A DNA stretch of 64,000 nucleotides from Georhizobium profundi (GTDB taxonomy: Bacteria > Pseudomonadota > Alphaproteobacteria > Rhizobiales > Rhizobiaceae). The DNA lies in NCBI RefSeq assembly GCF_003952725.1, contig NZ_CP032509.1, positions 186,001-250,000 on the forward strand, read 5' to 3'. The position numbers were made by a program, and so were the translations under genes. The notes under the pieces are model-generated. The model was not told where the DNA came from. It did no database searches and worked only from the letters and a program-made list of their open reading frames with translations. Shown piece after piece: positions 4,388 to 32,182 of the stretch; position 1 is the stretch's first letter; each line of letters opens with the position of its first letter.

Positions 4388-4418
4388 ACTTTGCAAGCTC
4401 TAGCCCCTGGAGGAGCAA
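4388..4418 (-). promoter_or_regulatory. MerR-type promoter for the dsbA-ppiC-ldt-fad operon
   Basis: On the minus strand: -35 TTGCTC, a 19-bp spacer CTCCAGGGGCTAGAGCTTG, and a weak -10 CAAAGT (AAAGTA with a 20-bp spacer). The spacer holds an imperfect dyad of the type seen at nine other sites in this window. MerR-family activators act on promoters with overlong 19-20 bp spacers. It ends 25 bp before the dsbA-like start codon. Confidence 0.65.
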
Positions 4419-4432
4419 GCGCTAATTTGGCG

Positions 4433-5179
4433 TCAGGCGATCGCTCTCGGACCGCTGCGCACGATGATTGGCGAGGGGATCGAGACACGATCGTAGAGGT
4501 CGATGATGTCCTGGTTGATCAGACGGACGCAGCCGCTCGACACCGCGCGCCCTATGGTCCAGTACTCGGGCGAGCCGTGCAGGCGGTAGAGGGTGTCCTG
4601 CCCGTTCTGGAAGATGTAGAGCGCCCGCGCACCGAGAGGATTGTCGAGCCCGGGCGGCTGGCCCCCGTTCTCGGCGCTGAATTCTTCCAGCTCGGGCTGG
4701 CGCGCAATCATCTCCGCCGGCGGGGTCCAGACCGGCCAGGGCCGCTTCCACTGGATGACCCCTTCACCGGACCAGGTGAACCCCGCCCGCCCGAGGCCGA
4801 CGCCGTATCTCATCGCCTTGCCGTCGGGCAGAACCAGATAGAGGAAAAAGGACTGCGTATCGACGACGACGGTTCCGGGACGTTCGCCCGTCGGGTCGTC
4901 GACGAACTGACGGTAGAACTGCCGGTCGACCCTTCTCAGGTCGACGGCGGGGATCGGGAAATCCTCTTCCGGCATCGCCCGGTACATGGAGACGAAGGAG
5001 GGATCGATGCTCGGCGTTTCCGGCACCACCGCGACGGGCTGGATATCGGTGGTCGTGCAGCCGGCCAGCGTCAAGGATGCGGCCGAGGATGCGGCAAGGG
5101 TCAGGACTTGCCGTCGGGACAGGCCTGTGCGTGATGGTGTGGTTGTCAATGCTTTGCTCCCAATACGGTCGTGGTCCAT
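4433..5179 (-). CDS. L,D-transpeptidase, lipoprotein-like
   Basis: 248 residues: an SRRQ Tat-like motif, a hydrophobic stretch and a lipobox LTLAG-Cys41, then a long linker and a YkuD catalytic domain with His201 (LHGSPEYWTIG) and Cys217 (SSGCVRL). The enzyme probably sits on the membrane facing the periplasm and cross-links peptidoglycan. It is closely related in layout to the transpeptidase at 2250-2813. It follows a 108-residue secreted protein and a third transpeptidase on the same strand, so it may be the last gene of that small operon. Confidence 0.9.
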   Translation of the reverse strand: MDHDRIGSKALTTTPSRTGLSRRQVLTLAASSAASLTLAGCTTTDIQPVAVVPETPSIDPSFVSMYRAMPEEDFPIPAVDLRRVDRQFYRQFVDDPTGERPGTVVVDTQSFFLYLVLPDGKAMRYGVGLGRAGFTWSGEGVIQWKRPWPVWTPPAEMIARQPELEEFSAENGGQPPGLDNPLGARALYIFQNGQDTLYRLHGSPEYWTIGRAVSSGCVRLINQDIIDLYDRVSIPSPIIVRSGPRAIA

Positions 5180-5299
5180 TGCTCCCCGCGGAAAGCAATT
5201 GGTGAGGACGAATTGCGACCGTCTGGATCGGAGCCGCCTTTCCTCGGGGCTGCGCCCGAAGAAACTCGATCTCCTACCGGCCGTTTCGCCTGCTCGACG

Positions 5300-5626
5300 C
5301 TATTGGGGCGGTGGGACGATGATGGGAATGAAGGCGAACGTCAGGTCCTGCTCCCGGCCGTGTATCGACAGCAGGCCCGCGCTGGCAGCGTGGGGTGAAA
5401 GCCAGATCGTCAATCCGGCGCAGTGGTCATGGCATTTCGTCGTGGCGTGCGGCGACAGTGGCAACGCATCATCGTTGCTATCGTTCGGCAGTTCGGAACC
5501 GCCGCTGCCAGCCATGATCTCGGCCGTCGCGAACTCCTGAAACGACATCTTCGCAGCCACGGCCGTGGGCGCCGCCATATGGACGGCGACCATGAAAGCC
5601 AGGAGGAATGCGAGGAATCGGATCAT
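5300..5626 (-). CDS. Small secreted protein of unknown function
   Basis: 108 residues: a clear signal peptide (about 1-25, ending AVAA), then a short mature chain containing HATTKCHDHC, a cluster of two Cys and three His that could bind a metal, and a proline-rich end. I do not recognise the family; it resembles short copper-island proteins only in style. It lies 12 bp after the stop of the transpeptidase at 5639-6643 on the same strand, so the two are likely co-transcribed. Confidence 0.6.
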   Translation of the reverse strand: MIRFLAFLLAFMVAVHMAAPTAVAAKMSFQEFATAEIMAGSGGSELPNDSNDDALPLSPHATTKCHDHCAGLTIWLSPHAASAGLLSIHGREQDLTFAFIPIIVPPPQ

Positions 5627-5638
5627 CGTGCTGTCGTT

Positions 5639-7904: not shown

Positions 7905-8056
7905 TGTTTGACTCTCCCCGAAGTGATGGGAAGAAGCCTAGCGTAGAAACCTCAAAATCGAAGAAAATCAATGGCTTGTATTCGATTCAAACTCGCTGCA
8001 AATCGCAGCGGTTTTCGCAATCCTTCCTTTACCAGGATCGGCGGGCTTGCTGCACG

Positions 8057-8660: not shown

Positions 8661-9074
8661 ATGCTGACGATCGGAGAGCTGTCGCGCGTCACCGGGGTGA
8701 AAGTTCCGACCATCCGCTACTATGAGCAGATGGGTCTGTTGATGGCGCCGGGCCGCTCGGGCGGCAATCAAAGGCGTTATGAGCCTGGCGAACGGGAACG
8801 GTTGTCCTTCATCAAGCACGCTCGCGACCTCGGTTTCACGATCGGGGCCATTCGTGAACTGCTCGAGCTGAGCGAGCATCCGGAACGGCCATGCGCGGAT
8901 GCCGACAACATCGCGGTTCGTCAGCTGCAGATTGTCCGGGACAAGATTGCAAAGCTCAGGCCCCTTGAGCGCGAACTCGAACGCATCGCGACCCGATGCC
9001 ACGGCGATCAGATCAGGGACTGTTACGTCATTCAGTCTCTGGCCAACCACGAACTGTGCTCGAACGAGCACTGA
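8661..9074 (+). CDS. MerR-family metal sensor (CadR/PbrR/ZntR-like)
   Basis: 137 residues: an N-terminal winged helix (about 1-70; VPTIRYYEQMGLL is the MerR signature), a dimerisation helix (about 80-112) and a C-terminal metal loop. Cys78, Cys113 and Cys121 are placed as in the divalent soft-metal sensors (PbrR and CadR have Cys near 78, 113 and 120). CueR-type Cu(I) sensors have Ser at the first position, so Zn, Cd or Pb is more likely than Cu. GGAGG lies 5 bases before the ATG. It is divergent from the PCu(A)C-like gene. It is a candidate activator of the ten MerR-type promoters listed here. Confidence 0.88.
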   Translation: MLTIGELSRVTGVKVPTIRYYEQMGLLMAPGRSGGNQRRYEPGERERLSFIKHARDLGFTIGAIRELLELSEHPERPCADADNIAVRQLQIVRDKIAKLRPLERELERIATRCHGDQIRDCYVIQSLANHELCSNEH

Positions 9075-10968: not shown

Positions 10969-10999
10969 TTGATCCTCTAGCTGCTCTAGGTCGTATGGA
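10969..10999 (+). promoter_or_regulatory. MerR-type promoter of the P-type ATPase operon
   Basis: -35 TTGATC, 19-bp spacer CTCTAGCTGCTCTAGGTCG, -10 TATGGA. The -10 ends 29 bp before the ATPase start. Metal-exporter genes are the classical targets of MerR-family activators, so this site anchors the reading of the other nine. Confidence 0.85.
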
Positions 11000-11028: not shown

Positions 11029-13326
11029 ATGACGGTCCCGCAACGCCAGACGCGCTTTCGAGTGGAGGGGATGGATTGCGCGAGCTGCGCGGCCAAGATC
11101 GAGACAGCCGTTCGCCGCATTCCGGCCGTGACAGATGTAGGAGTTTCGGTCGTCGCCGGCACGATGACGGTGACACACGGGCCGGAAACCGACCTCGACG
11201 GTGTCGCGCGCAAGCTCGGCAGCCTTGGCTACAAGGCGTCCCCCCTGACGCGAACCGGAGAGAAGGCGCCCGCCTCCGGTCATGTCCACGGTCCGGAATG
11301 CCGTCACGAGGGGCATGAGCATTCGCACGACAACGATCACCATGCGCATGGCGGCGGTAACGCGCATGACGGTGTCCCTCCATCCAGGGCCTCGAATGTG
11401 CCGACCGGCGACTCGCTTCACGGCATGCACGGGCATGACCATGGGCCGATCGACGGTCCGTGGTGGAGCACATCGAAGGCGAAGCTGACCATCGTCTGCG
11501 GCGCGGCGCTCGCCATCGCCTTCGGGCTGTCGCAACTCTTTCCGCAAACGCAACCCTGGGGCTTCATCATCGCCATGGCCGTCGGGCTCGTGCCGATCGC
11601 GCGCCGGGCGCTGTTCGGGGCGATGAACGGCAGCCCGTTCTCGATCGAGACGCTTATGACCGTGGCGGCGGTGGGCGCCGTCATCATCGATGCTGCGGAG
11701 GAAGCCGCAGTCGTCGTCTTCCTGTTCCTTGTCGGCGAACTGCTGGAAGGCATCGCAACGGGACGGGCGCGAGCGTCGATCCGTGCGCTCTCGAACCTGA
11801 TGCCTAAGACCGCGCTGCTTGAAAGCGAGGGAGGCACACGGACCGTTCCGGCGGACAGCCTCACGGTCGGTTCGATCGTGATGATCCGTCCGGGCGACCG
11901 GGTGCCGGCCGACGGCGTCGTGCTTTCCGGCGAAAGCGCGGTAGACGAAGCGCCGGTGACCGGTGAGTCGGTCCCCAAGCGAAAGGAGGAAGGCGACAAG
12001 GTGTTCGCCGGCACGGTGAACCAGGAAGGGGTGCTGCGCGTGCGCGTCACGGCGGCCGCGGCAGACAACACGATCGCTCGCATCATTGCGCTGGTCGAGG
12101 AGGCGCAGGAATCGAAGGCTCCGACCGAACGCTTCATCGACCGCTTTTCCAAATACTATACGCCAGGCGTGATGGTCGTGGCAGCGCTCGTGGCTATCCT
12201 GCCGCCGTTGCTGGGCGGAGCCGAGTGGAACACATGGATCTATCGCGGTCTCGCGGTTCTGCTGATCGGCTGCCCGTGCGCGCTCGTCATCTCGACGCCG
12301 GCCGCAATCGCGGCTGGGCTTTCCGCCGGCGCCCGGCGCGGCCTGCTGATGAAAGGTGGAGCCGTGCTGGAGAACCTCGGTAAGGTCGACAGCGTGGCTT
12401 TCGACAAGACCGGGACGCTGACCGAGGGCAAGCCGAAGGTGACGGACATCGTCGGCATAGGGCGCGACGAGCGCGAGACACTTCGCCTCGCCGCGTCGCT
12501 GGAGGTGGGCTCAAGCCATCCGCTTGCGGTCGCGATCCTCGCAAAAGCCGAAGCGGAGAATGTGCCAGTGGTCGCGGCATCGGAGGCGGGCGCTGTTGGC
12601 GGCAAGGGCGTTGTGGGGACGCTCGATGGTGTGAAGCTGTTCTTCGCCTCGCCACGTGCGGCGGGCCAGCAGGTCATGCTCGACGAGGCCCTTACCACAC
12701 GCATTGCGTCGCTCAACGACGAGGGCAAGACCGTGTCGGTGCTGTTGGCAGGCGGACAGGTCGCCGGTTTGATAGCCATGCGCGACGAGCCACGCGATGA
12801 CGCGAAGGCCGGCATCGCCGCGCTGCGCGAGTTGGGCGCCGACTCTGTGATGCTGACGGGCGACAACCAGCGCACGGCCAAGGCGATTGCCGCCTCGCTC
12901 GGGATGGAAGCGCGCGCCGAGCTCTTGCCTCAGGACAAGCAGAAGATCGTCGGCGAGATGCGGGCGACAGGCTCGTTCGTCGCCAAGGTCGGCGACGGAA
13001 TCAACGATGCGCCCGCACTTGCCGCCGCCGACATCGGCATCGCCATGGGAAGCGGAACCGACGTCGCGCTGGAGACCGCGGACGCAGCGGTCTTGCACGG
13101 TCGTGTCAAGGATGTGGCGAACATGGTCTCGCTCTCGCGCGCAACCATGAGCAACATCTGGCAGAACATCGTCATGTCGCTTGGCCTCAAGGCGGTGTTC
13201 CTCGTCACGACCGTCCTTGGCGTGACCGGGTTGTGGCCCGCGATCCTGGCCGACACCGGCGCTACCGTTCTGGTCACCGCCAACGCCATGCGCTTGTTGG
13301 CCTGGCGCGGCATTCGCGATGCCTGA
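11029..13326 (+). CDS. Heavy-metal P1B-type ATPase, ZntA/CadA-like
   Basis: 765 residues: an N-terminal HMA domain with GMDCASC (Cys17, Cys20), a His-rich linker (about 84-145, many His-x-His pairs), eight predicted membrane helices, the TGES actuator motif, the transport motif CPC at 415-417 followed by ALVISTPAA, the phosphorylated Asp459 in DKTGTLT, and GDGINDAP. The CPCALVISTPAA block and the late LADTGATVLVTANAMRLL are typical of the Zn2+/Cd2+/Pb2+ subgroup, not the CopA copper subgroup (CPCALGLATP). It exports divalent metal from the cytoplasm. It heads an operon with PCu(A)C, SCO, DsbB and DsbA genes, below a MerR-type promoter. Confidence 0.93.
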   Translation: MTVPQRQTRFRVEGMDCASCAAKIETAVRRIPAVTDVGVSVVAGTMTVTHGPETDLDGVARKLGSLGYKASPLTRTGEKAPASGHVHGPECRHEGHEHSHDNDHHAHGGGNAHDGVPPSRASNVPTGDSLHGMHGHDHGPIDGPWWSTSKAKLTIVCGAALAIAFGLSQLFPQTQPWGFIIAMAVGLVPIARRALFGAMNGSPFSIETLMTVAAVGAVIIDAAEEAAVVVFLFLVGELLEGIATGRARASIRALSNLMPKTALLESEGGTRTVPADSLTVGSIVMIRPGDRVPADGVVLSGESAVDEAPVTGESVPKRKEEGDKVFAGTVNQEGVLRVRVTAAAADNTIARIIALVEEAQESKAPTERFIDRFSKYYTPGVMVVAALVAILPPLLGGAEWNTWIYRGLAVLLIGCPCALVISTPAAIAAGLSAGARRGLLMKGGAVLENLGKVDSVAFDKTGTLTEGKPKVTDIVGIGRDERETLRLAASLEVGSSHPLAVAILAKAEAENVPVVAASEAGAVGGKGVVGTLDGVKLFFASPRAAGQQVMLDEALTTRIASLNDEGKTVSVLLAGGQVAGLIAMRDEPRDDAKAGIAALRELGADSVMLTGDNQRTAKAIAASLGMEARAELLPQDKQKIVGEMRATGSFVAKVGDGINDAPALAAADIGIAMGSGTDVALETADAAVLHGRVKDVANMVSLSRATMSNIWQNIVMSLGLKAVFLVTTVLGVTGLWPAILADTGATVLVTANAMRLLAWRGIRDA

Positions 13327-13405
13327 CACATACATGCGGCGATGTGCATCCTGTTCCTGCAAGGCGGAGATGGCGCAGAACGCCTCATGTCGAGTGCGAT
13401 ATGGA

Positions 13406-13921
13406 GTGGAAAAATTGTTCAATGCTAACAAAGCCGTCGCCATGGCGACGCTGTTCATGTCCAGCTTGCTGATTGCCTCGCCCGCAGCGGCGCACGACTT
13501 TTCGGTCGGCGACATTGCGGTCGGCCATCCGTGGTCGCGTCTCGCACCGGCCAACGCTCCGGTCATAGGCGGCTATCTGACGCTGACCAACACAGGGTCG
13601 CAGCCCGATACGCTGGTCGGCGGAAGTGCCACGATCGCCGAACGCGTCGAGATCCACGAGATGCGTATCGAGGACGGGGTGGCCCGTATGCGGCCTCTTC
13701 CCGCTGGGCAGGAGATAGCTCCCGGAGCGACGGTCGAGCTCCAGCCGGGCGGTACCCATCTCATGTTCATCAATCCTGAACGTGCGTTCTCGGAAGGCGA
13801 GCGCTTCGAGGTGACGCTCGAGTTCGCGAATGCCGGTGAAGTGGCCGTCGAGTTCGTGGTGCAAAGGAACCCGGGTGGAAATGCGGGACAAGAGGATGAA
13901 CATGGAGGCCATGCGCCATGA
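13406..13921 (+). CDS. PCu(A)C copper chaperone (DUF461)
   Basis: 171 residues from the GTG at 13406: a signal peptide ending AAAHDF, then a PCu(A)C domain with the full copper site pattern: HEM, about 9 residues, then MRPLP, then GGTHLMF. Such proteins carry Cu(I) in the periplasm and, with SCO proteins, help to assemble the CuA site of cytochrome oxidase. The frame is open back to an ATG at 13319 inside the ATPase gene, but that start gives a long Cys-rich extension before the signal peptide, so a downstream start is more likely. The SCO gene overlaps its end by 4 bp. Confidence 0.85.
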   Translation: MEKLFNANKAVAMATLFMSSLLIASPAAAHDFSVGDIAVGHPWSRLAPANAPVIGGYLTLTNTGSQPDTLVGGSATIAERVEIHEMRIEDGVARMRPLPAGQEIAPGATVELQPGGTHLMFINPERAFSEGERFEVTLEFANAGEVAVEFVVQRNPGGNAGQEDEHGGHAP

Positions 13922-14523
13922 GCTTTGTCAGGCTGTTCCGCATCGGCGTTTGGGTCGCAATCGCGGTGCTGGGCACGTACCTGGTGGTGTCGACGCAGAT
14001 GACCGCGCAGCGCCAGCCTGTGGAAGCTTCGACCGGGGCAGCGCGTGTGGGCGGCCCGTTCTCGCTCGTGTCGCATGAGGGAGAGCGGGTGGACAATCAG
14101 TCGCTGGCGGGGCGTCCCTACGTCGTGTTCTTCGGCTTCACCCATTGCCCCGAGATTTGTCCGACGACGCTGTTCGAGCTGACCGACCTGATGGGCGAAC
14201 TGGGCCCGGATGCAGACAAGCTTGAAGTCCTGTTCGTCACCGTCGATCCGGAGCGGGACACGCAAGACATGCTCGCCGGCTACATGACCTCCTTTGACAG
14301 CCGCATCACCGCGCTGCGGGGGACGGCCGAAGAGACCGAGGCCGCACTGAACGCATTCTCGGCCTACGCGGCAAAGGTGCCTCTCGAAGCCGGCCAGTAC
14401 ACGATGGATCACACGGCCGGCGTCTTCCTCATGCGCGGCGACGGCAGCTTCGGTGGCGTTCTCGACATGCACGAACCCCGCGAGACGAGGCTGGAAAAAC
14501 TGCGCCGTCTCGCGAGCGCCTGA
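13918..14523 (+). CDS. SCO1/SenC-family copper protein
   Basis: 201 residues: one N-terminal membrane anchor (about 7-25) and a thioredoxin-like SCO domain with the copper ligands Cys77 and Cys81 (CPEIC) and the distal His in MDHTAGVF. SCO proteins deliver copper to, or reduce the cysteines of, the CuA centre of cytochrome c oxidase. It starts within the end of the PCu(A)C gene (ATGA overlap), so the two chaperones are translationally coupled. Confidence 0.92.
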   Translation: MSFVRLFRIGVWVAIAVLGTYLVVSTQMTAQRQPVEASTGAARVGGPFSLVSHEGERVDNQSLAGRPYVVFFGFTHCPEICPTTLFELTDLMGELGPDADKLEVLFVTVDPERDTQDMLAGYMTSFDSRITALRGTAEETEAALNAFSAYAAKVPLEAGQYTMDHTAGVFLMRGDGSFGGVLDMHEPRETRLEKLRRLASA

Positions 14524-15652: not shown

Positions 15653-16594
15653 TCACTCATGATTGGATTTGAGTTCGCCCCGTGGGTCGACCTGCACGGT
15701 GACGTGGTCGATCGCATAGCGCTCCTTGAGCCAGGCCGAGACGAGCGGCGGGAGGCTGAGCGGATCCGTTCCGGTCGCCGGGCTGACATGGACTGTGGCG
15801 ACGCTCGTCTCGTCCGTCAGCGTCCAGGCATGAAAGTGCCCGGCCTCGGCGATGCCCGGTACGCCGGCGAGCCCGCGCTCCGCTTCGATCGCGTCCACAC
15901 CACGCGGAACAGCTTGCAGCAGGACGCGGATCGAATCCGAGACCAGGCTCCATGCGGATCTGACGACGAGCCCCGCCACCAGCACGGACAGGATGGGGTC
16001 GAGTATCGTCCATCCGGTCAGCATGATCCCGATCGCCGCAGCGATCGCGCCGACGGAGCCGAGCAGGTCGCCGATGACGTGCAGGAAGGCGCCCCTGAGA
16101 TTGCTGTCGCCCTTGTTGCCCGACCAGAGGATCCAGGCGCCGGCGACGTTCACGCCCAGGCCGATCACCGCGACGATCAGCATCGGGCCCGCCAGAATCT
16201 CCACCGGCGCGTTGATGCGCTGCACGGCCTCCCACGCGATCCAGGCCACGAGCAGGAGCAACGTCGCGCCGTTGGCGAGCGCCGCCAGTACCCTTACCCG
16301 GTGGAAACCGTAGGTGCGTTGGGAGTCCGCCGCGCGCCGAGCGATGCGATAGGCGATCAGGGCGAGCAGCAGCGCGGCCGCGTCGGAGACCATGTGGCCC
16401 GCATCCGCGATTAGCGCGAGCGAGCCTGAGTACCAGCCGCCGATCGCCTGCACGATGGCGTAGCTTGCCGTGAAGATTAGTACGAATCGGATGCGCCGCT
16501 CGTTCGAAGCGGTCACGACCTGTGCGTGATCGTGGCCCTCCTCGTGCGCGTGCCCTTCATGGCCCGTCTTCGAGATCTCTGGATTGCCGGTCAC
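15653..16594 (-). CDS. Cation diffusion facilitator (CDF) metal exporter, CzcD-like
   Basis: 313 residues: a His-rich N-terminus (GHEGHAHEEGHDH), six membrane helices with the HxxxD metal site HMVSD in helix 2 and a matching site in helix 5, then the cytoplasmic C-terminal domain. CDF proteins exchange Zn2+, Cd2+ or Co2+ for protons. The start lies one base after the stop of the HXXEE gene upstream, so both are probably transcribed from the MerR-type promoter at 17332-17362. It is convergent with the ATPase operon. Confidence 0.92.
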   Translation of the reverse strand: MTGNPEISKTGHEGHAHEEGHDHAQVVTASNERRIRFVLIFTASYAIVQAIGGWYSGSLALIADAGHMVSDAAALLLALIAYRIARRAADSQRTYGFHRVRVLAALANGATLLLLVAWIAWEAVQRINAPVEILAGPMLIVAVIGLGVNVAGAWILWSGNKGDSNLRGAFLHVIGDLLGSVGAIAAAIGIMLTGWTILDPILSVLVAGLVVRSAWSLVSDSIRVLLQAVPRGVDAIEAERGLAGVPGIAEAGHFHAWTLTDETSVATVHVSPATGTDPLSLPPLVSAWLKERYAIDHVTVQVDPRGELKSNHE

Positions 16595-16595
16595 A

Positions 16596-17144: not shown

Positions 17145-17331
17145 GGCCGACCCCGCAACGCGGATGTTGAGGCTCGGAGGACTAAAGCCTGATCGGGCTT
17201 GTTCGCCCCGCGGGCCTTGAAAGTGTGTGACAACGCGGCATCGGTCGGAAGCGCGCAAGGGCCTCCGGTCTGCTGCTTTCTGAATGTGGTTTCGCGGAAC
17301 ATCGGCGGCTCACCTGATCCTGACTTGATTA
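17145..17331. other. Leader region of the HXXEE-CDF operon
   Basis: The region from the HXXEE start codon back to the MerR-type promoter forms an untranslated leader of roughly 190 bp. I see no gene or strong hairpin in it. Confidence 0.4.
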
Positions 17332-17362
17332 AGACTGCATCCTCTAGCCGCTAGAGGAGCAA
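17332..17362 (-). promoter_or_regulatory. MerR-type promoter of the HXXEE-CDF operon
   Basis: On the minus strand: -35 TTGCTC, 19-bp spacer CTCTAGCGGCTAGAGGATG, poor -10 CAGTCT. Positions 17341-17357 form the best palindrome of the set (CCTCTAGC, one base, GCTAGAGG). It lies about 190 bp upstream of the HXXEE start. Confidence 0.7.
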
Positions 17363-19923: not shown

Positions 19924-21225
19924 TCAACTGGCCCTCTGCACCTGCTTGATCTTTTCCGGCTCGCTGATCGCATTGCCGGGTTCCTTACCAAGCACCGCCT
20001 CGGTGATCGAGTTGGGAACGCGACGAGGCGTCTCGAGAAGTCCCAGCAGCGGCATAACGATCAGAAAGAAGCCGAAATAGAACAGCGAAGAGACCTGCAT
20101 CAACGGTATGTAGATGCCTTCCGCAGGCTTCGCTCCCAGCCACCCGAGGAAAAGGGCGTTGGCTGCGAAAAGCCAGAAGAACAACTTGTACCAGGGGCGA
20201 TAGACCGCCGAGCGAACCTTTGACGTGTCGAGCCAAGGCACGAAGAACAGCACCGCAATAGCGCCGAACATCGCAAGCACGCCGCCGAGCTTTGCGTCGA
20301 TAGGCCCGATGTTGAAAGTGACCGCTCTCAGGATCGCGTAGAACGGCAGGAAATACCATTCGGGAACGATCTTCGCGGGCGTCCTGAGCGGATCGGCCTG
20401 CACGTAATTGTCCGCATGGCCCAGATAGTTCGGAATATAGAAGACGAAGTATGCGAACACGATCAGGAAGATCACCATGCCGACCGCGTCTTTCGTGGTC
20501 GCATAAGGCGTGAAGGGCAACGTGTCCGTCTTGTGCTTGACCTCTATGCCTGTGGGGTTGGTCTGTCCGGTGACGTGCAGCGCCCAGACATGCAGGACGA
20601 CCACGCCCGCAATCATGAAGGGCAGCAGGTAGTGAAGTGCAAAGAACCTGTTCAGCGTCGGACTGTCGACCGCAAAACCGCCAAGCAGAAGCTGCTGGAG
20701 CCACTCCCCGACCAAGGGGATGGCCGTAAAAAATCCGGTGATCACCGTCGCGCCCCAGAAGCTCATCTGCCCCCATGGGAGGACGTAGCCCATGAAGCCA
20801 GTAGCCATCATCAGGAGGTAGATGATGCACCCAAGGATCCAAAGCAGCTCGCGAGGAGCCTTGTAAGAGCCGTAGTACAGTCCGCGAAAGATGTGGAGAT
20901 AGACGGCGATGAAGAAGAATGAAGCTCCGTTGGAATGCAGATATCGCAGGAGCCAACCTGAATTGACGTCACGCATGATCTTCTCGACCGAATCGAACGC
21001 CGTTGCGGTGCTCGCCGAGTAGTGCATCGCCAGCACGATTCCGGTCGCTATCTGGAGGACCAGCATCAGTGTCAGAATGCCGCCGAACGTATAGGCGTAG
21101 TTCAGATTGCGTGGAACAGGATAGGATACGAAGGAATCATGGATCAGTCGCGGAAGCGGCATGCGCGCATCGACCCAGCGGCCAATACCTGACTTTGGGA
21201 CGTATCTGGATGGCGACCCCGACAT
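19924..21225 (-). CDS. Cytochrome b of a bc1-type complex, orphan copy
   Basis: 433 residues: a full-length cytochrome b with the heme-ligand helices ([22 protein letters not shown] with [18 protein letters not shown] with [10 protein letters not shown]) and the quinol-site motif [13 protein letters not shown]. It normally works with a Rieske protein and cytochrome c1, whose genes usually sit beside it; neither is here. The ATG at 21225 has an AAGGAGGGG Shine-Dalgarno. The MerR-type promoter at 21275-21305 is directly upstream. It is probably an alternative cytochrome b used under metal stress together with chromosomal partners (inference). Confidence 0.92.
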
Positions 21226-21274
21226 TCTGTTCCCCTCCTTTGATCCGGTCGATCTCCGATCGTACAATCCGGAG

Positions 21275-21305
21275 TCCGTAACACCTCACGCTGCTTGAGC
21301 TTCAA
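21275..21305 (-). promoter_or_regulatory. MerR-type promoter of the cytochrome b gene
   Basis: On the minus strand: -35 TTGAAG, 19-bp spacer CTCAAGCAGCGTGAGGTGT, -10 TACGGA, 50 bp before the cytochrome b start codon. The divergent MerR gene begins 138 bp to the right, the usual sensor/target layout. Confidence 0.75.
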
Positions 21306-21442
21306 GACCCTTCGAGACTTCTAGATGCGACAAATTTGTCCCCATGACATCGAGGCCCCAGCACAGGAGGCGAGATGGCGGGCACCTTGAGCATCATCTC
21401 AACCGTGCTACATCGGCGAAAAACAAGAGGACCGCAAAGACC

Positions 21443-21877
21443 ATGGGCGCAAGGACTTACTCGATCGGCGAGGCAGCAAGAGAGAGCGGCGTCAAGGTGC
21501 CGACAATCCGCTACTACGAGGATATCGGCTTGCTAGGGAGAATCGCGCGCAGCGACGGCAATCGGCGCTTCTACGACCGGTCCGACGTCAGCCGCCTCTC
21601 CTTCATCCGCCATGCGCGTGAACTTGGCTTCGAGGTGGATGCGATCCGCACGCTGCTGAAATTGCAGGACGATCCCGACCAATCATGCGAGGCCGCTGAC
21701 GCGATTGCAAAGGCGCGCCTCGACGATGTCGAGCGGCGCATCTCAAGCCTGAAACTGCTGCGCGTCGAGCTCAAGAAGATGATGCACGAATGCGCTTCGG
21801 GCCGGATCAGCGAATGTCGCGTCATCGAGATCCTCGCGGACAGCAGTCACCTTCACGGCAAACTCGTCGATCCTTGA
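21443..21877 (+). CDS. MerR-family metal sensor, second copy
   Basis: 144 residues: a winged helix (VPTIRYYEDIGLL), dimerisation helix and metal loop. Cys82, Cys117 and Cys125 have the same spacing as Cys78/113/121 of the MerR protein at 8661-9074, so it is also of the CadR/PbrR/ZntR type. It is divergent from the cytochrome b gene and its MerR-type promoter. A weak plus-strand element, TTGAGC at 21295 with TCTAGA 19 bp later, could give self-regulation but lacks the dyad. I chose the ATG at 21443 because it matches the usual MerR N-terminus; an earlier start would add 33 unlikely residues. Confidence 0.88.
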   Translation: MGARTYSIGEAARESGVKVPTIRYYEDIGLLGRIARSDGNRRFYDRSDVSRLSFIRHARELGFEVDAIRTLLKLQDDPDQSCEAADAIAKARLDDVERRISSLKLLRVELKKMMHECASGRISECRVIEILADSSHLHGKLVDP

Positions 21878-21905: not shown

Positions 21906-22634
21906 TCATCGTTGTGCAAGCCAGGACAGCGGCACGATGATCCCGAGGAGGATGGGCTGGTGCAGGAGGTAGATCGCGAGGCTGTGCCGCCCCATCCAGA
22001 CGAGCAGACGTGCTGGCTTCCCGGCAGCGAGCAAGTTCGCGAAGCTGGTATTCAAGTCAGCTGACAGAAGCCACTTTGCCACGGCAACGCCCATCAGCGT
22101 CAGGCCGACCCACGGAAAGATCGGCACGAAATCGTTGCTTGGCGGCACCTGCTCCGCGAACCCGATCCAGGCCAGCCAGCGCGTGTCGAAGATCGTTGAC
22201 CGCCAAAGCATCGGCATGGAGAAGACGGCGATGCCACCCAGGAGGCATGTCCATGCGCGTGCCCGCAGAAACAGCGTACCGATCAATGTGGCGGCGGCAA
22301 TCGCGTGCAGGATGCCAAAGTAGATGAAGGTCCCCGGAAGGACATACCACGTCACAACCGTGATCGCAGCGGCCGACGCGGCGATCTTTGCCAGGCGTAT
22401 GAAGTAGCTGGAAGGCTGAAAGCCGGCCCTGTCTGCCAATACGAGACCGACACCGACAAGGATCATGAAAGTGCCGGCAAGGCTACGTCCGAAGGCCAAC
22501 CACAACGGATGGTTGGCGACGCCGGCGATAAAGCCCGTGAACTCCAGATCCCAGACGAAGTGGAAAAATACCACACCGGCGATAGCAGCGCCGCGGACGG
22601 CGTCGATAGCCCAGAGTCGCATGGAGTTCGTCAT
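21906..22634 (-). CDS. DUF1624 membrane acyltransferase-like protein
   Basis: 242 residues, seven or more membrane helices. The N-terminal AIDAVRGAAIAGVVFFHFVWD segment and the C-terminal GRHSLAIYLLHQP are typical of the DUF1624/heparan-alpha-glucosaminide N-acetyltransferase-like family, which moves acyl groups across the membrane to envelope sugars. The substrate is unknown. The start lies 33 bp below one of the best MerR-type promoters (22667-22697). It converges with the second MerR gene. Confidence 0.85.
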   Translation of the reverse strand: MTNSMRLWAIDAVRGAAIAGVVFFHFVWDLEFTGFIAGVANHPLWLAFGRSLAGTFMILVGVGLVLADRAGFQPSSYFIRLAKIAASAAAITVVTWYVLPGTFIYFGILHAIAAATLIGTLFLRARAWTCLLGGIAVFSMPMLWRSTIFDTRWLAWIGFAEQVPPSNDFVPIFPWVGLTLMGVAVAKWLLSADLNTSFANLLAAGKPARLLVWMGRHSLAIYLLHQPILLGIIVPLSWLAQR

Positions 22635-22666: not shown

Positions 22667-22697
22667 ACTATAGGACCTCGACCTGCTTGAGGTTCAA
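22667..22697 (-). promoter_or_regulatory. MerR-type promoter of the DUF1624 gene
   Basis: On the minus strand: -35 TTGAAC, 19-bp spacer CTCAAGCAGGTCGAGGTCC, -10 TATAGT. This is the closest to consensus of the ten. The spacer differs at one base from the one at 26887-26905 (APC permease). Confidence 0.82.
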
Positions 22698-22780: not shown

Positions 22781-23347
22781 TCAACGACTGATCCGATAGA
22801 CAGACGCGGGTGGAAAGTTGCGGAATTCCGTTCCGATCATCTCAACCTTCAAGTCAAGACGTCGAAGGACGCTTTCGGGAATTGGGCTTCGCCATCCATA
22901 TGTGAATTGGTAAAAGCCCGCTTTCGGTTCCAGCAGCCTGAATGAGCCGGCAAGAATCCGCAGAACTTTGGAAGCCGGCATTGCCAGCAGCGGCAGTCCG
23001 CTGATGGCCGCTCCATGAAGCCTTGGTTGGGGGAGATTGCTCATGGATAGACGCGCAGCGTCGGCGCGCACGATCATCGCCCCGGGGTAGCGCTGCGCGA
23101 GAATGTCAGCAAACTCCTCGCCCAGCTCGACCAGGGTGAGTTCATTTTGCATTACGCCCCGGCGGATCAGCGCCTCCGTGAAAACCCCGGTGCCAGGGCC
23201 AAATTCGATTACCGGCCCGATCCCCGGGTGAACATGCCTGGTGATCAGTGCAGCGAGGTGCGCGCTCGAGGGGATGGCGGCACCGACGCGCAGCGGGTTG
23301 GCGACCCATGCGCGCAGGAAAGTTAGCCTGTCGGCCGATTGGGGCAT
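22781..23347 (-). CDS. SAM-dependent methyltransferase, phospholipid N-methyltransferase-like
   Basis: 188 residues. Motif I is VIEFGPGTGVFTEAL, with an acidic end of strand 2 (LTLVELGEEF). The opening FLRAWVANPLRVGAAIPSS matches COG3963 phospholipid N-methyltransferases (PmtA-like, making phosphatidylcholine from phosphatidylethanolamine) and the related rRNA dimethylase fold. A membrane-lipid role is the best guess. The MerR-type promoter at 23442-23472 lies about 95 bp upstream. Confidence 0.75.
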   Translation of the reverse strand: MPQSADRLTFLRAWVANPLRVGAAIPSSAHLAALITRHVHPGIGPVIEFGPGTGVFTEALIRRGVMQNELTLVELGEEFADILAQRYPGAMIVRADAARLSMSNLPQPRLHGAAISGLPLLAMPASKVLRILAGSFRLLEPKAGFYQFTYGWRSPIPESVLRRLDLKVEMIGTEFRNFPPASVYRISR

Positions 23348-23441: not shown

Positions 23442-23472
23442 ATGTTCCCACCTCTAGCAGCATGAGGTTCAA
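23442..23472 (-). promoter_or_regulatory. MerR-type promoter of the methyltransferase gene
   Basis: On the minus strand: -35 TTGAAC, 19-bp spacer CTCATGCTGCTAGAGGTGG, weak -10 GAACAT. The dyad and the -35 match the other sites well. Confidence 0.65.
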
Positions 23473-26726: not shown

Positions 26727-26757
26727 AGGCTAGCAGCTCTAGTCGCTAGAGGAGCAA
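26727..26757 (-). promoter_or_regulatory. MerR-type promoter facing the HXXEE pseudogene
   Basis: On the minus strand: -35 TTGCTC, 19-bp spacer CTCTAGCGACTAGAGCTGC, -10 TAGCCT. The -35 and dyad are nearly the same as those at 17332-17362, which serve the intact HXXEE gene, so promoter and gene type travel together. Confidence 0.72.
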
Positions 26758-26880
26758 GGGGGAATGTTCTATCGGGCACTCGGGCCCGGTAGGGTCGGGA
26801 ACCAGCATAGAGATCTTGCCTTGACGCCGTGTCTCTCGCCGCGTGGTGAGACCCGATCCCTCGGCAGTTGTCGTTTTCGG

Positions 26881-26911
26881 TTGAACCTCTAGCAGGTCGA
26901 GGTCCTAGAAA
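26881..26911 (+). promoter_or_regulatory. MerR-type promoter of the APC permease gene
   Basis: -35 TTGAAC, 19-bp spacer CTCTAGCAGGTCGAGGTCC, -10 TAGAAA, 61 bp before the chosen permease start. The frame of the permease is open through this element, so the longest possible start (26868) would lie upstream of the promoter and is unlikely. Confidence 0.82.
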
Positions 26912-26972
26912 TCCACTGACCGTTTTGTCGGAAGCGCACGAACGGCGTTCGAGATATCCGATCGAGGCAAGG

Positions 26973-28313
26973 ATGCGAGGAAAGATGTCGAGCAGCGGAA
27001 ACGAGCATCCAGCGCTGGCCAAGTCGCTCGGCGTTGTACGGCTGTCGCTCTATGGAGTCGGCACGATCATCGGTGCCGGGATCTATTCCGTCATCGCGCC
27101 GGCGGCCGGGGCAGCGGGCGATGCCATCTGGCTGAGCTTCGTGCTTGCCGCCGTGATATCGGCATTTTCCGGCCTGTCCTATGCTGAAATCGCCTCGGCG
27201 CTTCCAGGTGCTGGTGCGGAACATAACTTCCTGCGTAAGACGTTTCCTTCGTTTCCGGCTCTGGCGTTCATGATCGGGCTGTTCATCGCCGTTCATGGCG
27301 CGGCTACCCTGGCAACGGTGGCGCTCACCTTCGGCAACTACGCGCAGACACTCCTTCCGTTTGCGCCCGTCATCGTTGCCATTGCGCTCATGGGCGTCGC
27401 CACGATGATCAATATTGCCGGGATCGGCAAGGCGGCTTTCGTCAGCGCGGCCCTGACCGTTCTCCAGGTTTCATGTCTCGTGGGCTTTGCACTGTTCGCC
27501 ATACCATCTGGCAGCAGGAGCTTGCAGGACGTCTCGGTCTGGCCCGACAATCCCGCCGGCATCCTTCAGGGTGCGGCTATCCTGTTCTTTATCTACTCCG
27601 GCTACGAGCACATGGCTTCCCTCTCGGAAGAGGCCAAGCGTCCCGACCGCGATTTGTGGCGCGCTTTCATGATCGCGCTGGGCATCACCACCGTCGTCTA
27701 CATGGCCGTGATCTTCGGAGTTCTGAGCCTGATGAGCGCCGACAGTCTTGCAGGTTCCCAATCTCCGCTCGCCGATGCGGCCGCGCAACTGGGCGGCTCT
27801 TTCGGCATGATCATCATCGCTGCCGCCCTCATCGCTACCGCGAACGCCGTCGTGAGTTCCTCGCTGTCGGGGAGCAGGCTCCTCTTCGGCATGGCCCGCG
27901 ACGGCGATCTTCCCAGTCCCCTATCCAGAACCCTGGGCTTCAGTCGCAGCCCGTGGATCGCCGCACTGATCTATCTCGTGATCGCATGCGCCTTCGTAGC
28001 CGTCGGGGAAATCGCGTTTGTCGCAAGCCTGTCCTCGCTGGGAGTGACCCTTGTCTTCGCCGCGATCAATACGGCCGTGATCGTCCTGAGGTTTACACAG
28101 CCCGACCTCGAGCGGCCTTTCCGGCTGCCATCGATCGCGAACGTGCCGCCGACGGCGGTCCTGGGAGTGGTGACCTCACTCCTGCTGGCCACTCAATATG
28201 ATTGGGCCGTCTATCTGACGTTCGCCGGCGTGTTCGTACTTGGCGCGGTGCCGTACGTGTTTATCCGACGGCGGGGAAGCGCGACAACGCGGGCGAGCGG
28301 TGGTGAACCCTAG
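26973..28313 (+). CDS. APC-family amino acid/polyamine permease
   Basis: 446 residues with twelve membrane helices. The first helix carries the APC substrate motif GTIIGAGIYS, and the sixth region has FIYSGYEHMASLSEE. The substrate cannot be told from sequence. ATG 26973 and ATG 26985 are both possible starts. It follows a MerR-type promoter, which is unusual for an amino acid transporter; import of a thiol or polyamine precursor is one possible reason (inference). Confidence 0.88.
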   Translation: MRGKMSSSGNEHPALAKSLGVVRLSLYGVGTIIGAGIYSVIAPAAGAAGDAIWLSFVLAAVISAFSGLSYAEIASALPGAGAEHNFLRKTFPSFPALAFMIGLFIAVHGAATLATVALTFGNYAQTLLPFAPVIVAIALMGVATMINIAGIGKAAFVSAALTVLQVSCLVGFALFAIPSGSRSLQDVSVWPDNPAGILQGAAILFFIYSGYEHMASLSEEAKRPDRDLWRAFMIALGITTVVYMAVIFGVLSLMSADSLAGSQSPLADAAAQLGGSFGMIIIAAALIATANAVVSSSLSGSRLLFGMARDGDLPSPLSRTLGFSRSPWIAALIYLVIACAFVAVGEIAFVASLSSLGVTLVFAAINTAVIVLRFTQPDLERPFRLPSIANVPPTAVLGVVTSLLLATQYDWAVYLTFAGVFVLGAVPYVFIRRRGSATTRASGGEP

Positions 28314-28356: not shown

Positions 28357-28387
28357 TTGCACCTCATCCTGCTAGAGGTTGCATAAA
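28357..28387 (+). promoter_or_regulatory. MerR-type promoter upstream of ccmF
   Basis: -35 TTGCAC, 19-bp spacer CTCATCCTGCTAGAGGTTG, -10 CATAAA. It lies 44 bp after the APC permease stop and 179 bp before ccmF, so ccmF has its own promoter of the same class. Confidence 0.75.
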
Positions 28388-28565: not shown

Positions 28566-30557
28566 ATGATTGTTGAGTTGGGACATTTCGCGCTCGTGCT
28601 GGCATGTGTTCTGGCCACGGTGCAATTCTTCATACCGTGGATCGGCACGCAACTGGGCGACGATCGCCTCATGGCCGTTGCCAGGCCGGCTTCGGTTGCG
28701 GTTTTCGGTTTCGTCGCGCTGTCGTTCGCCGCGCTCACGGCAGCCTATGTCACCTCGGACTTCTCCGTTCAGAATGTCTGGGAGAATTCGCATTCGCTGA
28801 AGCCGATGCTTTTCAAGGTCACCGGGGTTTGGGGAAACCACGAGGGCTCGATGCTGCTCTGGGTCCTGATCCTGGCATTCTTCGGCGCACTTGTGGCGTG
28901 GTTCAGCGACAATCTACCGGCCAGCCTGCGCACGAATGTACTGGCTGTGCAGGGTCTGGTCGGAGCCGCCTTCCTTCTGTTCATTCTCGCCACATCGAAC
29001 CCGTTCGCTCGAATCAACCCCGCACCGATCGAGGGCCGCGACCTCAACCCGATCCTGCAGGACATCGGGCTCGCGATCCATCCACCACTGCTCTATCTCG
29101 GCTATGTCGGCTTCTCGGTCTGCTTCTCCTTTGCGGTCGCGGCGCTGATCGAGGGCCGTATCGATGCCGCCTGGGCGCGCTGGGTGCGGCCGTGGACCCT
29201 TGCGGCCTGGTTGTTCCTGACGGGCGGTATCGCGATGGGCTCCTACTGGGCCTACTACGAGCTTGGCTGGGGCGGCTGGTGGTTCTGGGACCCGGTCGAA
29301 AACGCCTCGTTCCTGCCGTGGCTGTCCGGCACTGCGCTTCTTCACTCGGCGATCGTGATGGAGCGGCGCTCGGCGCTGAAGATCTGGACGCTGCTGCTCG
29401 CCATCCTCACCTTCTCGCTGTCTCTGCTCGGCACCTTCCTCGTGCGCTCCGGCGTGCTGACCTCCGTCCATGCTTTCGCCACAGATCCGGCGCGCGGCGT
29501 CTTCATCCTGATGATCCTGATCGCCTTGATTGGCGGCTCGCTGGCGCTGTTCGCCGCGCGCGCTTCGACACTGACGCAGGGCGGGCTGTTCCACCCCGTT
29601 TCGCGCGAGGGCGCACTGGTGCTCAACAACCTGTTCCTGACCACGGCGGCGGCCACGGTGCTGATCGGCACGCTCTATCCGCTACTGATCGAGGCGGTCA
29701 CCGGCGACAAGATCTCGGTCGGCGCGCCGTTCTTCAACCTCACCTTCATCCCCCTCATGATCCCACTGCTTCTGGCCGTGCCGTTCGGGCCGCTGCTGGC
29801 CTGGAAGCGCGGCGACCTCTACGCCGTGGCCCAGCGCCTCTACTTCGCCCTCGGCGCGGCGCTGCTGACGGCGCTCGTGGTCTTCTTCTTCGTGGAAGGC
29901 AAAGGGGCGCTCGCCGCATTCGGCGTCGGCCTTGCCGTCTGGCTGATGCTGGGCGCGCTGACCGATCTGACGCTGAAGGCAGGCATCGGCAGCGTGGGTG
30001 CGGCAGTGGCGTGGAAGCGATTCAAGGGCCTACCGCGCTCGGTTTACGGCACTGCTGCGGCACATTTCGGGTTGGGCGTGACGGTGCTGGGCATCGCCGC
30101 CGTCACCTCGCTTGAGATTGAGCGAATCGTCGTGATGCAACCCGGCGACACGATGCCGATCGCCGGATATACGTTGCGTTTCGATGGTATCGCGCCGCAT
30201 CGCGGCCCGAACTTCACCGAGGAGCAGGGCCGCTTCGTCTATCTCGACAGCGATGGCCGGCAACGCGGCGAGATAGTCTCGTCCAAGCGTCTCTACACCG
30301 CGCGCCAGATGCCGACCACGGAAGCAGGCATCGCCACCCGCGGATTCAGCCAGCTCTACGTCTCGCTCGGCGACCCCACCCCCGATGGCGGCGTCGTGGT
30401 GCGCGTATGGTGGAAGCCGCTGGTGCTGCTGCTCTGGCTCGGCGGCGTGGCGATGATGGCTGGTGGCGCGATATCGCTGTTCGATCGTCGGTTTCGGGTC
30501 GGCGCGCCGAGTCGAAATCGGATCGCACTCGCCCGATCGGATGTCCCAGCGGAGTGA
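28566..30557 (+). CDS. ccmF: Cytochrome c-type biogenesis protein CcmF
   Basis: 663 residues, the usual length. It has about fifteen membrane helices, the WWD heme-handling block (GWGGWWFWDPVENASFLPW) and several conserved His residues (for example in GNHEGSMLLW). CcmF is the core of the heme lyase that attaches heme to apocytochromes c, normally encoded with ccmE, ccmG and ccmH. Here it is alone except for a TlpA-like thioredoxin convergent on the other strand. It may be a second copy adapted to metal stress (inference). Confidence 0.93.
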   Translation: MIVELGHFALVLACVLATVQFFIPWIGTQLGDDRLMAVARPASVAVFGFVALSFAALTAAYVTSDFSVQNVWENSHSLKPMLFKVTGVWGNHEGSMLLWVLILAFFGALVAWFSDNLPASLRTNVLAVQGLVGAAFLLFILATSNPFARINPAPIEGRDLNPILQDIGLAIHPPLLYLGYVGFSVCFSFAVAALIEGRIDAAWARWVRPWTLAAWLFLTGGIAMGSYWAYYELGWGGWWFWDPVENASFLPWLSGTALLHSAIVMERRSALKIWTLLLAILTFSLSLLGTFLVRSGVLTSVHAFATDPARGVFILMILIALIGGSLALFAARASTLTQGGLFHPVSREGALVLNNLFLTTAAATVLIGTLYPLLIEAVTGDKISVGAPFFNLTFIPLMIPLLLAVPFGPLLAWKRGDLYAVAQRLYFALGAALLTALVVFFFVEGKGALAAFGVGLAVWLMLGALTDLTLKAGIGSVGAAVAWKRFKGLPRSVYGTAAAHFGLGVTVLGIAAVTSLEIERIVVMQPGDTMPIAGYTLRFDGIAPHRGPNFTEEQGRFVYLDSDGRQRGEIVSSKRLYTARQMPTTEAGIATRGFSQLYVSLGDPTPDGGVVVRVWWKPLVLLLWLGGVAMMAGGAISLFDRRFRVGAPSRNRIALARSDVPAE

Positions 30558-30628
30558 CGGCGCCTGTGTCGCAGCAACTCTAGCTCGATATTCGCGCAAC
30601 CGGCCAGGTTGGACAGCCTGACAGCAGT

Positions 30629-31294
30629 TCACATCGCAGCTTCGATAAGCCGCTTGGCATCGTCGCTGGCCCATTCGGCAGGGCCATTCATGTGGGCGAG
30701 AAGGCATCCCTCCTCGTCTACCAACAACGTAACCGGCAGGCCGATGGCGAGCCCTCGGCGCTTCAAGTTGTTGAAGAGCGCGAGCGTGGAGTCTCGATAA
30801 TAGGTGAGCTCGTCGATGCCGATCTCTTGCAGAAAGGCCTTCGGCCTCTCATCGCCGCCGGTATCGAGGTTGACGGCCACCACTTCGAAGTCCGGGCCGC
30901 CGATCGTGGCCTGCAGTTCGTTTAAGGCGGGCATTTCTTCCCGGCAGGGCGCGCACCACGTCGCCCAGAGATTGATGAGCAGTGTCTTGCCGGCCAGCTC
31001 CGCGACAGTCATGGCAGCGCCATCAGGCCCGTTGAACGCGAGGCTGCTCATCGAAAGCGGAGGATCGGCCGGAAGCATCGCCGCCACCTCTCCTTGGGCA
31101 GCCTTGTCGACAGCCGCGATCTTGTCGTCACGCGCAGGGCAGCTTTGGGTCCGATCGGAGGCGGTGGCTGATTGCCGCCCGCTACCAAAAGGGCCACCGA
31201 ACACGTAGACGCCGACTGCGCCGGCACTCATCCCGGCAAGAATTGCAGATGCCATCAACACTCCGGTCGGCAGGCGGAATTTTCCCTGTGCCAT
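30629..31294 (-). CDS. TlpA/CcmG-like membrane-anchored thioredoxin
   Basis: 221 residues: one N-terminal anchor (about 12-32), a linker with an extra Cys52, then a TlpA-type thioredoxin domain with active site WCAPC (Cys114, Cys117) and a VTLLVDEEG cis-proline region. Such proteins reduce apocytochrome c cysteines or the CuA cysteines. The chosen ATG (31294) gives a standard anchor; the frame is open 104 codons further without a plausible N-terminus. It converges with ccmF, a natural functional partner. Confidence 0.9.
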   Translation of the reverse strand: MAQGKFRLPTGVLMASAILAGMSAGAVGVYVFGGPFGSGRQSATASDRTQSCPARDDKIAAVDKAAQGEVAAMLPADPPLSMSSLAFNGPDGAAMTVAELAGKTLLINLWATWCAPCREEMPALNELQATIGGPDFEVVAVNLDTGGDERPKAFLQEIGIDELTYYRDSTLALFNNLKRRGLAIGLPVTLLVDEEGCLLAHMNGPAEWASDDAKRLIEAAM

Positions 31295-31619
31295 CTCTCG
31301 ATCCGATAAGAAAGAGCGGGTCTCATCTCCATCATGAGTGTAAACGATCCTGGCTACCTGGATGTCAATGCGCTTGTTGCCGCCAGCAAGCGGGTCGGAC
31401 GGGGCTGGCGGCGTCAACCGACGCTGAAAATCTGAGTGTACGCAAGACCTGGACTCTGGGAGCACCTTCACACACTCTGGCCGCCGGATTCGTGCTCCTG
31501 ATTCTCCCGGTCGGCCTCCCAGATTCGAACGCAACAGATCGGGTATTCTATAGGAGCAGCAGAAGTCGCCTAGTTGGCGAGCGCAAATGGGGTTCGCCCC
31601 ATCCACATATTCTTCTGCG
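31295..31619. other. Intergenic, no gene seen
   Basis: 325 bp upstream of the TlpA-like gene and downstream of the pseudoazurin remnant. Open frames here lack ribosome sites and family features. No MerR-type element was found for the TlpA-like gene. Confidence 0.5.
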
Positions 31620-32078
31620 CTAGGTGGTCGGAACGGCGGCTAGGAGCTCGTCAAAAAGTTGCTTGGCCCTGGGCGGATGCCTCACCGCTCCGGCCTCCTC
31701 TAGGTTGGTTGGGGCGCCCACTGAGATCAGCATCACCATCCCCATGCCATAGTGCGGCGTACATTTGACCCCATAGAGGCCTTCCCCTTCGAGGTTGATA
31801 GTGACCTACTCGTTGAGCTTGCTCTTGAAGGGCTTTGCGTCGGCAGGCAACATCCCCGCGATACTCTCGGCATTGTGGGATTTGTCGGTCGGAACGAAGG
31901 TGACGGTGTCACCGGGAGCGGCGGCGACGAAGTCGGGCTCATAGCGTCTCTCGAAGCTCTCCAGACCGACCATTTCAAGGTATCGGGAGACGACATTCAT
32001 CCCCTTGTGACGCGCGCCGAACAGGATGTTAGGCGATGTCAACAGGGCCGCAGAACTGCCGAGTGATGCCGGGAGCAT
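31620..32078 (-). pseudogene. Pseudoazurin (blue copper protein) with an in-frame stop
   Basis: One frame of 153 codons reads as pseudoazurin: [30 protein letters not shown], then a TAG at 31808-31806, then LYGVKCTPHYGMGM and a typical pseudoazurin tail. All four type-1 copper ligands are encoded: His of SHN, Cys of VKC, His of TPH and Met of GMGM. The TAG falls between the first His and the other three ligands, where family members usually have a Tyr or Asn codon. The N-terminus is also poor (a weak signal sequence and a lost first strand). Pseudoazurin carries electrons to nitrite or nitrous oxide reductases and peroxidases. Confidence 0.8.
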
Positions 32079-32151
32079 TCTCCTGCGTTTCCCGTCTGTC
32101 TAAGGGGGCTAATTCCTCGGGGCTCTTTCTAGTTCAACACAGCTTTGAAAC

Positions 32152-32182
32152 TTGATGCTCAAGGGGCTTGAGGTTTTATCAC
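32152..32182 (+). promoter_or_regulatory. MerR-type promoter upstream of the LysR gene
   Basis: -35 TTGATG, 19-bp spacer CTCAAGGGGCTTGAGGTTT with a clean CTCAAG/CTTGAG dyad, -10 TATCAC. It ends 74 bp before the LysR start. It is the last of the ten such elements and the one nearest the conjugation operon. Confidence 0.72.

Follow-up and report, generated by a model that had tools for sequence, protein, structure and literature searches.

A predicted multi-operon MerR regulon of metal efflux and envelope-repair genes on an integrative-element-like island of Georhizobium profundi

The 64,000-nucleotide stretch of the Georhizobium profundi genome studied here (the window; C1:186001-250000 of a genome that is one contig of 4,356,607 bases) contains ten promoter-like elements. 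Probably these are sigma-70-type promoters operated by MerR proteins, forming one metal regulon of efflux and envelope repair. Regulators of the MerR family occupy promoters with long spacers and, once triggered, activate them by distorting the DNA. Promoter-like sites confined to islands, conservation of five of the ten, and regulators of the matching class are all directly visible. The initial annotation counted ten sites, which is right for the window; the set is larger, with 12 predicted promoters on the element that fills most of the window and five on a second island, 17 in the genome. The sites are strongly supported as a set, and the pattern is more general than that annotation held.

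Design, placement and genomic distribution of the sites

All ten elements reported by the initial annotation are present at their coordinates and on their strands (Table 1), and the 19 bp spacing it gave between -35 and -10-like hexamers is exact in each. Every site consists of TTG, three bases, a dyad that starts with CTC within the spacer, and a -10-like hexamer. All ten have the 19-20 bp between -35 and -10 that characterizes MerR-type long-spacer promoters, and the dyad is centered in the spacer, 7 bp from the -35; the same geometry, a 19 bp spacer and 7 bp from -35 to dyad center, is given for CadR-PbrR sites in the available part of PMC5045206. The 19 bp spacer is also found in all 17 sites of the genome, seven of which came from a fixed-length matrix. 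Invariant columns in the ten and the seven further sites are T1, T2, G3, C7, T8, C9, A20, G21, and A27. The division of the dyads into a CTCTAG and a CTCAAG class did not prove clean, as CTC-TAG, CTC-AAG, CTC-ATG, CTC-CAG, and mixed dyads were found.

Under leave-one-out matrices the ten sites score 25.3-37.7 bits, in each case above every non-site position of the window. With mirror-image matches on the same dyads set aside (up to 19.4 bits), the best other place in the window scores 6.7 bits with the full ten-site matrix. Fifty dinucleotide shuffles of the window gave a mean maximum of 9.3 and a highest value of 17.5 bits. Own-genome control sequence (13 stretches, 260 kb in total) reached at most 13.2 bits, and three further own-genome stretches without sites, outside that count (L047, L050, and L053), peak at no more than 10.7 bits. 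A look for promoters with a different spacing gave no candidate: of the 12 best extra dyads in the window, not one is preceded at six bases by TTG in the manner of the ten, and the three strongest (35485, 8954, and 24194) fall inside open reading frames (ORFs).

Start codons, ORFs, and operons were read from the sequence. A sense start codon lies 5-200 bp downstream of all ten sites, versus 12.3% of random positions (first 33 kb), and in each case the -10 side faces the start codon and the TTG side faces away. The genes that the initial annotation placed behind the sites were recovered, except at 17332, where an HXXEE-like gene comes first after the site and the CDF gene follows. ORF 26301-26702, previously called HXXEE, has no Pfam match. 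A weak promoter-like match precedes a BTLCP peptidase gene (7941-7971, minus strand; 6.7 bits with the ten-site and 9.7 bits with the 17-site matrix) and is possibly a decayed or forming site. A hairpin CTCCTG...CAGGAG over the zntA ribosome site (11003-11021) was considered and rejected, as 30 of 200 shuffles give an equally good fold (z -0.97); the inverted repeat is present also in two relatives' loci (L073 and L074).

Genome-wide, a degenerate pattern with up to three mismatches has 29 occurrences. The two islands account for 19 of these, counting mirror images, and the other 10 lie outside them, each with two or three mismatches. The reversed control pattern occurs at 17 places. A profile built from the 17 sites, with which the best 150 of 1564 candidates were scored, gave 25 matches at E<=10, all in the two islands, comprising the 17 sites and 8 mirror images. 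Matches as frequent in shuffled or core genome sequence, which the initial annotation had named as grounds for abandoning the idea, were thus not encountered in the shuffles or among these candidates.

The second island (C1:2.060-2.077 Mb; L048 and L049) has five sites, which precede a PCuAC gene (divergent from merR3), lspA, a DUF1624 gene, dsbA, and a P-type ATPase gene. Its GC content is lower, 0.56 and 0.58 in two 20 kb stretches versus 0.63 in the window. The islands are not recent copies of each other, because MerR3 is only 66% identical to MerR1. Origin of the sites from a repeat was likewise rejected: with flanks that show no relation to one another (pairwise identity at most 0.38), the 17 sites are neither pieces of a larger repeat nor recent copies of one sequence.

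Table 1. Predicted promoters, putative target genes, regulators, and the integrase-like gene (window positions, or contig positions where marked C1)
Feature	Position	Strand	Remarks
MerR-type promoter (predicted)	4388..4418	-	before dsbA-like gene (Thioredoxin_4), then ppiC
MerR-type promoter (predicted)	10969..10999	+	before ZntA-like P-type ATPase gene
MerR-type promoter (predicted)	17332..17362	-	before HXXEE-like gene, then CDF transporter gene
MerR-type promoter (predicted)	21275..21305	-	before cytochrome b gene; between it and divergent merR2
MerR-type promoter (predicted)	22667..22697	-	before DUF1624/HGSNAT_cat gene
MerR-type promoter (predicted)	23442..23472	-	before PmtA-like methyltransferase gene
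MerR-type promoter (predicted)	26727..26757	-	before small ORF 26301-26702
MerR-type promoter (predicted)	26881..26911	+	before APC-family permease gene
MerR-type promoter (predicted)	28357..28387	+	before ccmF-like gene
MerR-type promoter (predicted)	32152..32182	+	before LysR-type regulator gene
Extra site on the element	C1:179121		before lspA
Extra site on the element	C1:182287		before ccdA, then lnt
merR1	8661..9074	+	Pro-type recognition helix GVKVPTIRYYE; Cys78/113/121
merR2	21344..21877	+	same helix GVKVPTIRYYE; 45% identical to merR1
DsbA-like thioredoxin, predicted target	3731..4396	-	start probably ~4363 (match begins C1:190363)
PpiC-type peptidyl-prolyl isomerase	2847..3719	-	probably on dsbA transcript
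ZntA-like heavy-metal P-type ATPase, predicted target	11029..13326	+
PCuAC copper-chaperone-like	13319..13921	+	probable operon with ATPase
Sco1/SenC	13918..14523	+	probable operon with ATPase
HXXEE-like membrane protein, predicted target	16596..17258	-	23.1 bits, cut-off 25
CDF cation efflux protein	15653..16594	-	probable operon with HXXEE-like gene
Cytochrome b, predicted target	19924..21267	-
DUF1624/HGSNAT_cat, predicted target	21906..22634	-
Phospholipid N-methyltransferase-like, predicted target	22781..23347	-	92 bits vs PmtA cut-off 250
APC permease, predicted target	26868..28313	+	start probably near 26973
CcmF/NrfE-type heme lyase, predicted target	28566..30557	+
LysR-type regulator, predicted target	32257..33138	+	possible cascade
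Integrase-like protein	50301..51599	-	Pfam match Arm-DNA-bind_3 only; right end of element

Regulators and the correspondence between helix and box

The genome encodes ten MerR-domain genes, of which three are Pro-type (MerR1 and MerR2 of the window and MerR3 of the second island) and one is Glu-type. The recognition helix is identical in the three Pro-type proteins, and the three metal-binding cysteines typical of CadR and PbrR (Cys78, 113, and 121) are invariant in them. Of the solved structures, those of CadR and of the MerR-family protein in entry 5gpe match best. MerR1 (104.8 bits) and MerR2 (97.7 bits) do not reach the NCBIfam CadR-PbrR cut-off of 151.45 bits and are also below the curated family cut-offs for CueR, ZntR, MerR, and SoxR; therefore, we assign them to neither CadR nor PbrR. 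In CadR and PbrR, a Glu in the helix goes with G as the third base of the half-site, and here Pro and C are found instead. Published correlations link residue 14 of the DNA-binding domain of MerR proteins to site base 5 (Glu with G, Lys with C, and Gln with A), and Pro is not listed in the table that reports these pairs (PMC5045206 Table 2).

Pairing of box and regulator was surveyed in loci from 199 genomes of the order, picked by DNA pattern alone and then read for the nearest MerR; they include related genomes, so the counts are not all independent. CTGTAG boxes have a Glu-type MerR at 25 of 25 loci. At 30 CTCTAG loci (from 37 matches, one locus being from G. profundi itself) the regulator is Pro-type in 23, Gln in one (572 bp away), and Thr in one, and five have no MerR within 1.5 kb. 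The profile used to find MerR genes was built from three Pro-type proteins, yet it recovered the Glu-types. Because the Pro-type is confined to three of the ten MerR-domain genes and because of this code, the ten sites are tied to those three regulators. Judged from sequence, their regulator class is assignable: a Pro-type MerR with a CTC box. Joint control by the two window regulators, as first proposed, is supported by this covariation and by the footprints described below; the CadR/PbrR label stands as a resemblance and fails as a family membership.

Recurrence in relatives and the mobile element

In the best 80 of 572 GTDB stretches that encode a MerR1 relative (1.5 Mb), the 17-site matrix finds 89 sites of at least 18 bits, distributed over 56 loci, versus none in 345 kb of own-genome control. 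Many relatives have a single site beside merR, before zntA or a CDF gene. More than one is present in some of the nearest relatives, with a maximum of seven at 14 bits in 20 kb (L081), and in these multi-site loci the sites precede zntA, a murein L,D-transpeptidase gene, lspA, sco1, dsbA, and DUF1624 genes.

Promoters of the same gene were compared over the 31 site bases and over 40+40 flanking bases. Across gene sets, site identity is 0.61-0.94 versus 0.23-0.52 in the flanks. Values for site versus flanks are 0.75 versus 0.31 for zntA (13 sequences), 0.69 versus 0.34 for dsbA (4 of 5 given), 0.66 versus 0.29 for lspA (5), and 0.61 versus 0.23 for DUF1624 (3: own, second island, and L081). Two genes that have no own-genome site behave alike, LDT2 (8 sequences; 0.73 versus 0.32) and sco1 (4 sequences; 0.94 versus 0.52).

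Site by site, 96 fetched loci (L073-L152 and L189-L204, the scope of all homologue counts here) show a counterpart before homologues from other lineages for dsbA, zntA, DUF1624, methyltransferase, and ccmF, which makes five of the ten. The dsbA site is kept in L073, L074 (weak, with TCG), L088, L090, L191, L201, L203, and the second island, and the ccmF site precedes the one homologue found (L193, 83% identical). The HXXEE-like gene has one homologue, without a site. The neighboring CDF gene has 27, two of which have the mirror of a divergent site only; cytochrome b has two, neither with a site. No homologue of the APC permease or of ORF 26301 was found in these loci.

One or more matches at E<=0.02 occur in 129 of 247 genomes of the family, a set to which G. 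profundi belongs, and five or more in 13; the source genome holds the most (15 under these stricter filters). Much of the package is also present on a named plasmid of Nitratireductor rhodophyticola, where boxes precede lspA, ccdA, a zinc-ribbon gene, dsbA, and the genes for a response regulator and an ATPase. As far as sequence can tell, plasmids and islands of other Hyphomicrobiales carry the predicted regulon too, with a membership that varies. The box before the zinc-ribbon (Zn_ribbon_TFIIB) gene is found at L203:8450, L191:6749, L193:16311, L197:8691, and L201:12035, and the last four genes are 82-97% identical to that of L203.

The window lies largely within an element that resembles an integrative conjugative element. 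A genome of another genus in the same family (G172) matches C1:141620-157701 at 100% over 16,082 bp and C1:167404-237820 at 99.997% over 70,417 bp, and the two segments are one continuous piece there. The right end lies at ~51,820 in the window, just past the integrase-like gene, and relaxase, coupling-protein, and type IV secretion-type genes are present inside. It is therefore a discrete unit with the gene classes of integrative conjugative elements and with an occurrence in another genus. Two further genomes (G085 and G196) have 11 sites each, and the nine G196 sites listed keep the own-genome spacing exactly. Given this and the G172 match, the cargo appears to move as a unit. As to a tRNA attachment site, no tRNA is encoded in the 64-kb window. 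Outside the window, C1:157701-167404 (L067 and L051) is a 9.7 kb insertion missing from the otherwise identical G172 element. It encodes a MerR of the Glu-type, which has a CTG box to itself at C1:158179, and one tyrosine recombinase (Pfam Phage_integrase), and two large neighboring ORFs have no integrase match.

Alternative readings, proposed mechanism, and significance

Several observations weigh against a single, fully active MerR regulon. The -10 hexamers are weak, with the second base alone invariant, and the genome profile was applied to the best 150 of 1564 candidates. Of the 80 relatives' loci, 24 have no site at 18 bits, and TTG in 89 of 89 relatives' sites is partly built in, since the matrix favors it. 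The DUF1624 site precedes one of six homologues and the methyltransferase site one of seven (L204, 52% identical); none of seven LysR homologues has a site. With one recognition helix in three regulators, any of them may act at a given site. These homologue counts lowered our confidence, as did the sites at 17332, 21275, 26727, 26881, and 32152, for which no counterpart before a homologue was seen outside copies of the same element. These five also speak for a tentative alternative, to which we give a minor share of the probability, in which only the zntA, dsbA, DUF1624, methyltransferase, and ccmF promoters are live and the rest are decayed or captured copies, no longer responsive. Differing membership among relatives points the same way: the window L,D-transpeptidase genes (4433 and 5639) and PCuAC gene (8057) have no clear site, and relatives or the second island have one. 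However, all ten sites keep CTC, the right-half AG, and the -10 A at exact spacing, though they were selected for such looks, and the dissimilar flanks argue against recent copying.

A split into two or three regulons, with MerR1 and MerR2 reading separate subsets of sites in response to different metals, is about as doubtful as the partly live set. It would accord with the low identity of the two proteins (45%) and the varied dyads, but not readily with the shared helix, nor with three loci (L076, L081, and L091) in which one Pro-type MerR accompanies several sites within the ~20 kb read. It is very improbable that the CTCAAG...CTTGAG-like members are SoxR boxes of a redox regulon. The E. coli SoxR box, CCTCAAG-CTTGAGG in a 19 bp spacer, does resemble them; we rejected this reading on three grounds. 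None of the ten MerR-domain genes has the SoxR-type four-cysteine cluster (as far as read, by eye), SoxR scores of both window MerRs are far under the cut-off, and CTCAAG and CTCTAG dyads occur together near one Pro-type MerR in L082, L086, L092, and L202. Short motifs are common in 64 kb, but chance or compositional artefact is refuted by the shuffles, genome controls, profile scan, footprints, start-codon placement, and helix-box covariation, and its probability is close to nil.

For the favored single regulon, we infer binding, metal, activation mechanism, transfer, and purpose along the following lines. The over-long spacer of each sigma-70-type promoter would hold the operator, where MerR1 and MerR2 (and MerR3) would bind the CTC...GAG dyad and keep the promoter shut without metal. 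A divalent soft metal bound by MerR would lead to untwisting of the DNA, presenting -35 and -10 to RNA polymerase; Zn, Cd, or Pb is most likely the inducer, a guess from the cysteines and the transporters. One signal may then call up export (the ZntA-like ATPase and CDF) with copper-chaperone and Sco proteins, thiol-disulfide exchange and cytochrome maturation (DsbA, CcdA, CcmF, and cytochrome b), and lipoprotein maturation (LspA and Lnt), membrane-lipid enzymes, and the LysR regulator, whose gene among the targets (32152) would allow a second tier. From gene content, the purpose may be efflux combined with repair of envelope proteins whose thiols, heme, or metal sites the metal damages.

Known systems resemble parts of this arrangement. 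In CadR/PbrR regulons (the cadR-cadA divergon and the pbr operon of Cupriavidus metallidurans), a 19 bp spacer with central dyad, a Cys-type MerR, and a metal P-type ATPase are shared, and pbrC encodes a predicted signal peptidase, comparable to lspA here (available part of PMC1526738). They differ in helix and half-site base, as described above, and in having about one site per regulator: Table 1 of PMC5045206 counts 174 sites for 172 CadR-PbrR regulators and 884 for 763 MerR regulators overall. CadR of Pseudomonas aeruginosa regulates cadA and a second, unlinked target, zrd, whose product is a zinc-ribbon protein (available part of PMC12301328) and is likened by protein kind only to that boxed in relatives; its two bound sites per genome contrast with the 17 predicted here. 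These published counts agree with the statement in the initial annotation that MerR proteins usually control one or two promoters. Mesorhizobium and other Hyphomicrobiales also have merR-zntA (or merR-CDF) divergons with a single site; these share the Pro-type helix and CTCTAG box and have one promoter beside the regulator, whereas here many lie away from it. Plasmid pSinB of Sinorhizobium sp. M14 encodes a Pro-type MerR relative with boxes before murein L,D-transpeptidase and P-type ATPase genes, but has two strong sites in the 40 kb read, and the available part of PMC6115938 describes no shared regulon. Among the papers listed in full-text literature searches, mostly without subscription journals, none dealt with a MerR metal regulon of this kind.

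Heavy-metal MerRs are known to act as local switches, and the published survey (PMC5045206) counts about one site for each. The kind of system is known, a MerR regulon; what would be new is its enlarged, probably mobile form, in which metal pumps and envelope-repair genes are probably induced jointly, where control of one or two genes would be usual. We lean toward the view that a Pro-helix MerR subclass grew on Hyphomicrobiales mobile elements from a one-promoter divergon to a multi-operon regulon that couples metal export with renewal of the envelope machinery for thiols, heme, lipoproteins, and cell wall. On this view, with a code common to resident and incoming islands, an element that has just arrived would connect immediately to the resident one. 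If correct, the reading adds a Pro-C pair to the MerR residue-base correlations, one unlisted in PMC5045206 Table 2, and hints that, on metal islands, the genes for DUF1624, HXXEE, accessory L,D-transpeptidases, LspA, and Lnt may serve envelope repair under metal stress. A mobile regulon of such size with a readable helix-box code would also make the growth of regulons by horizontal transfer directly testable.

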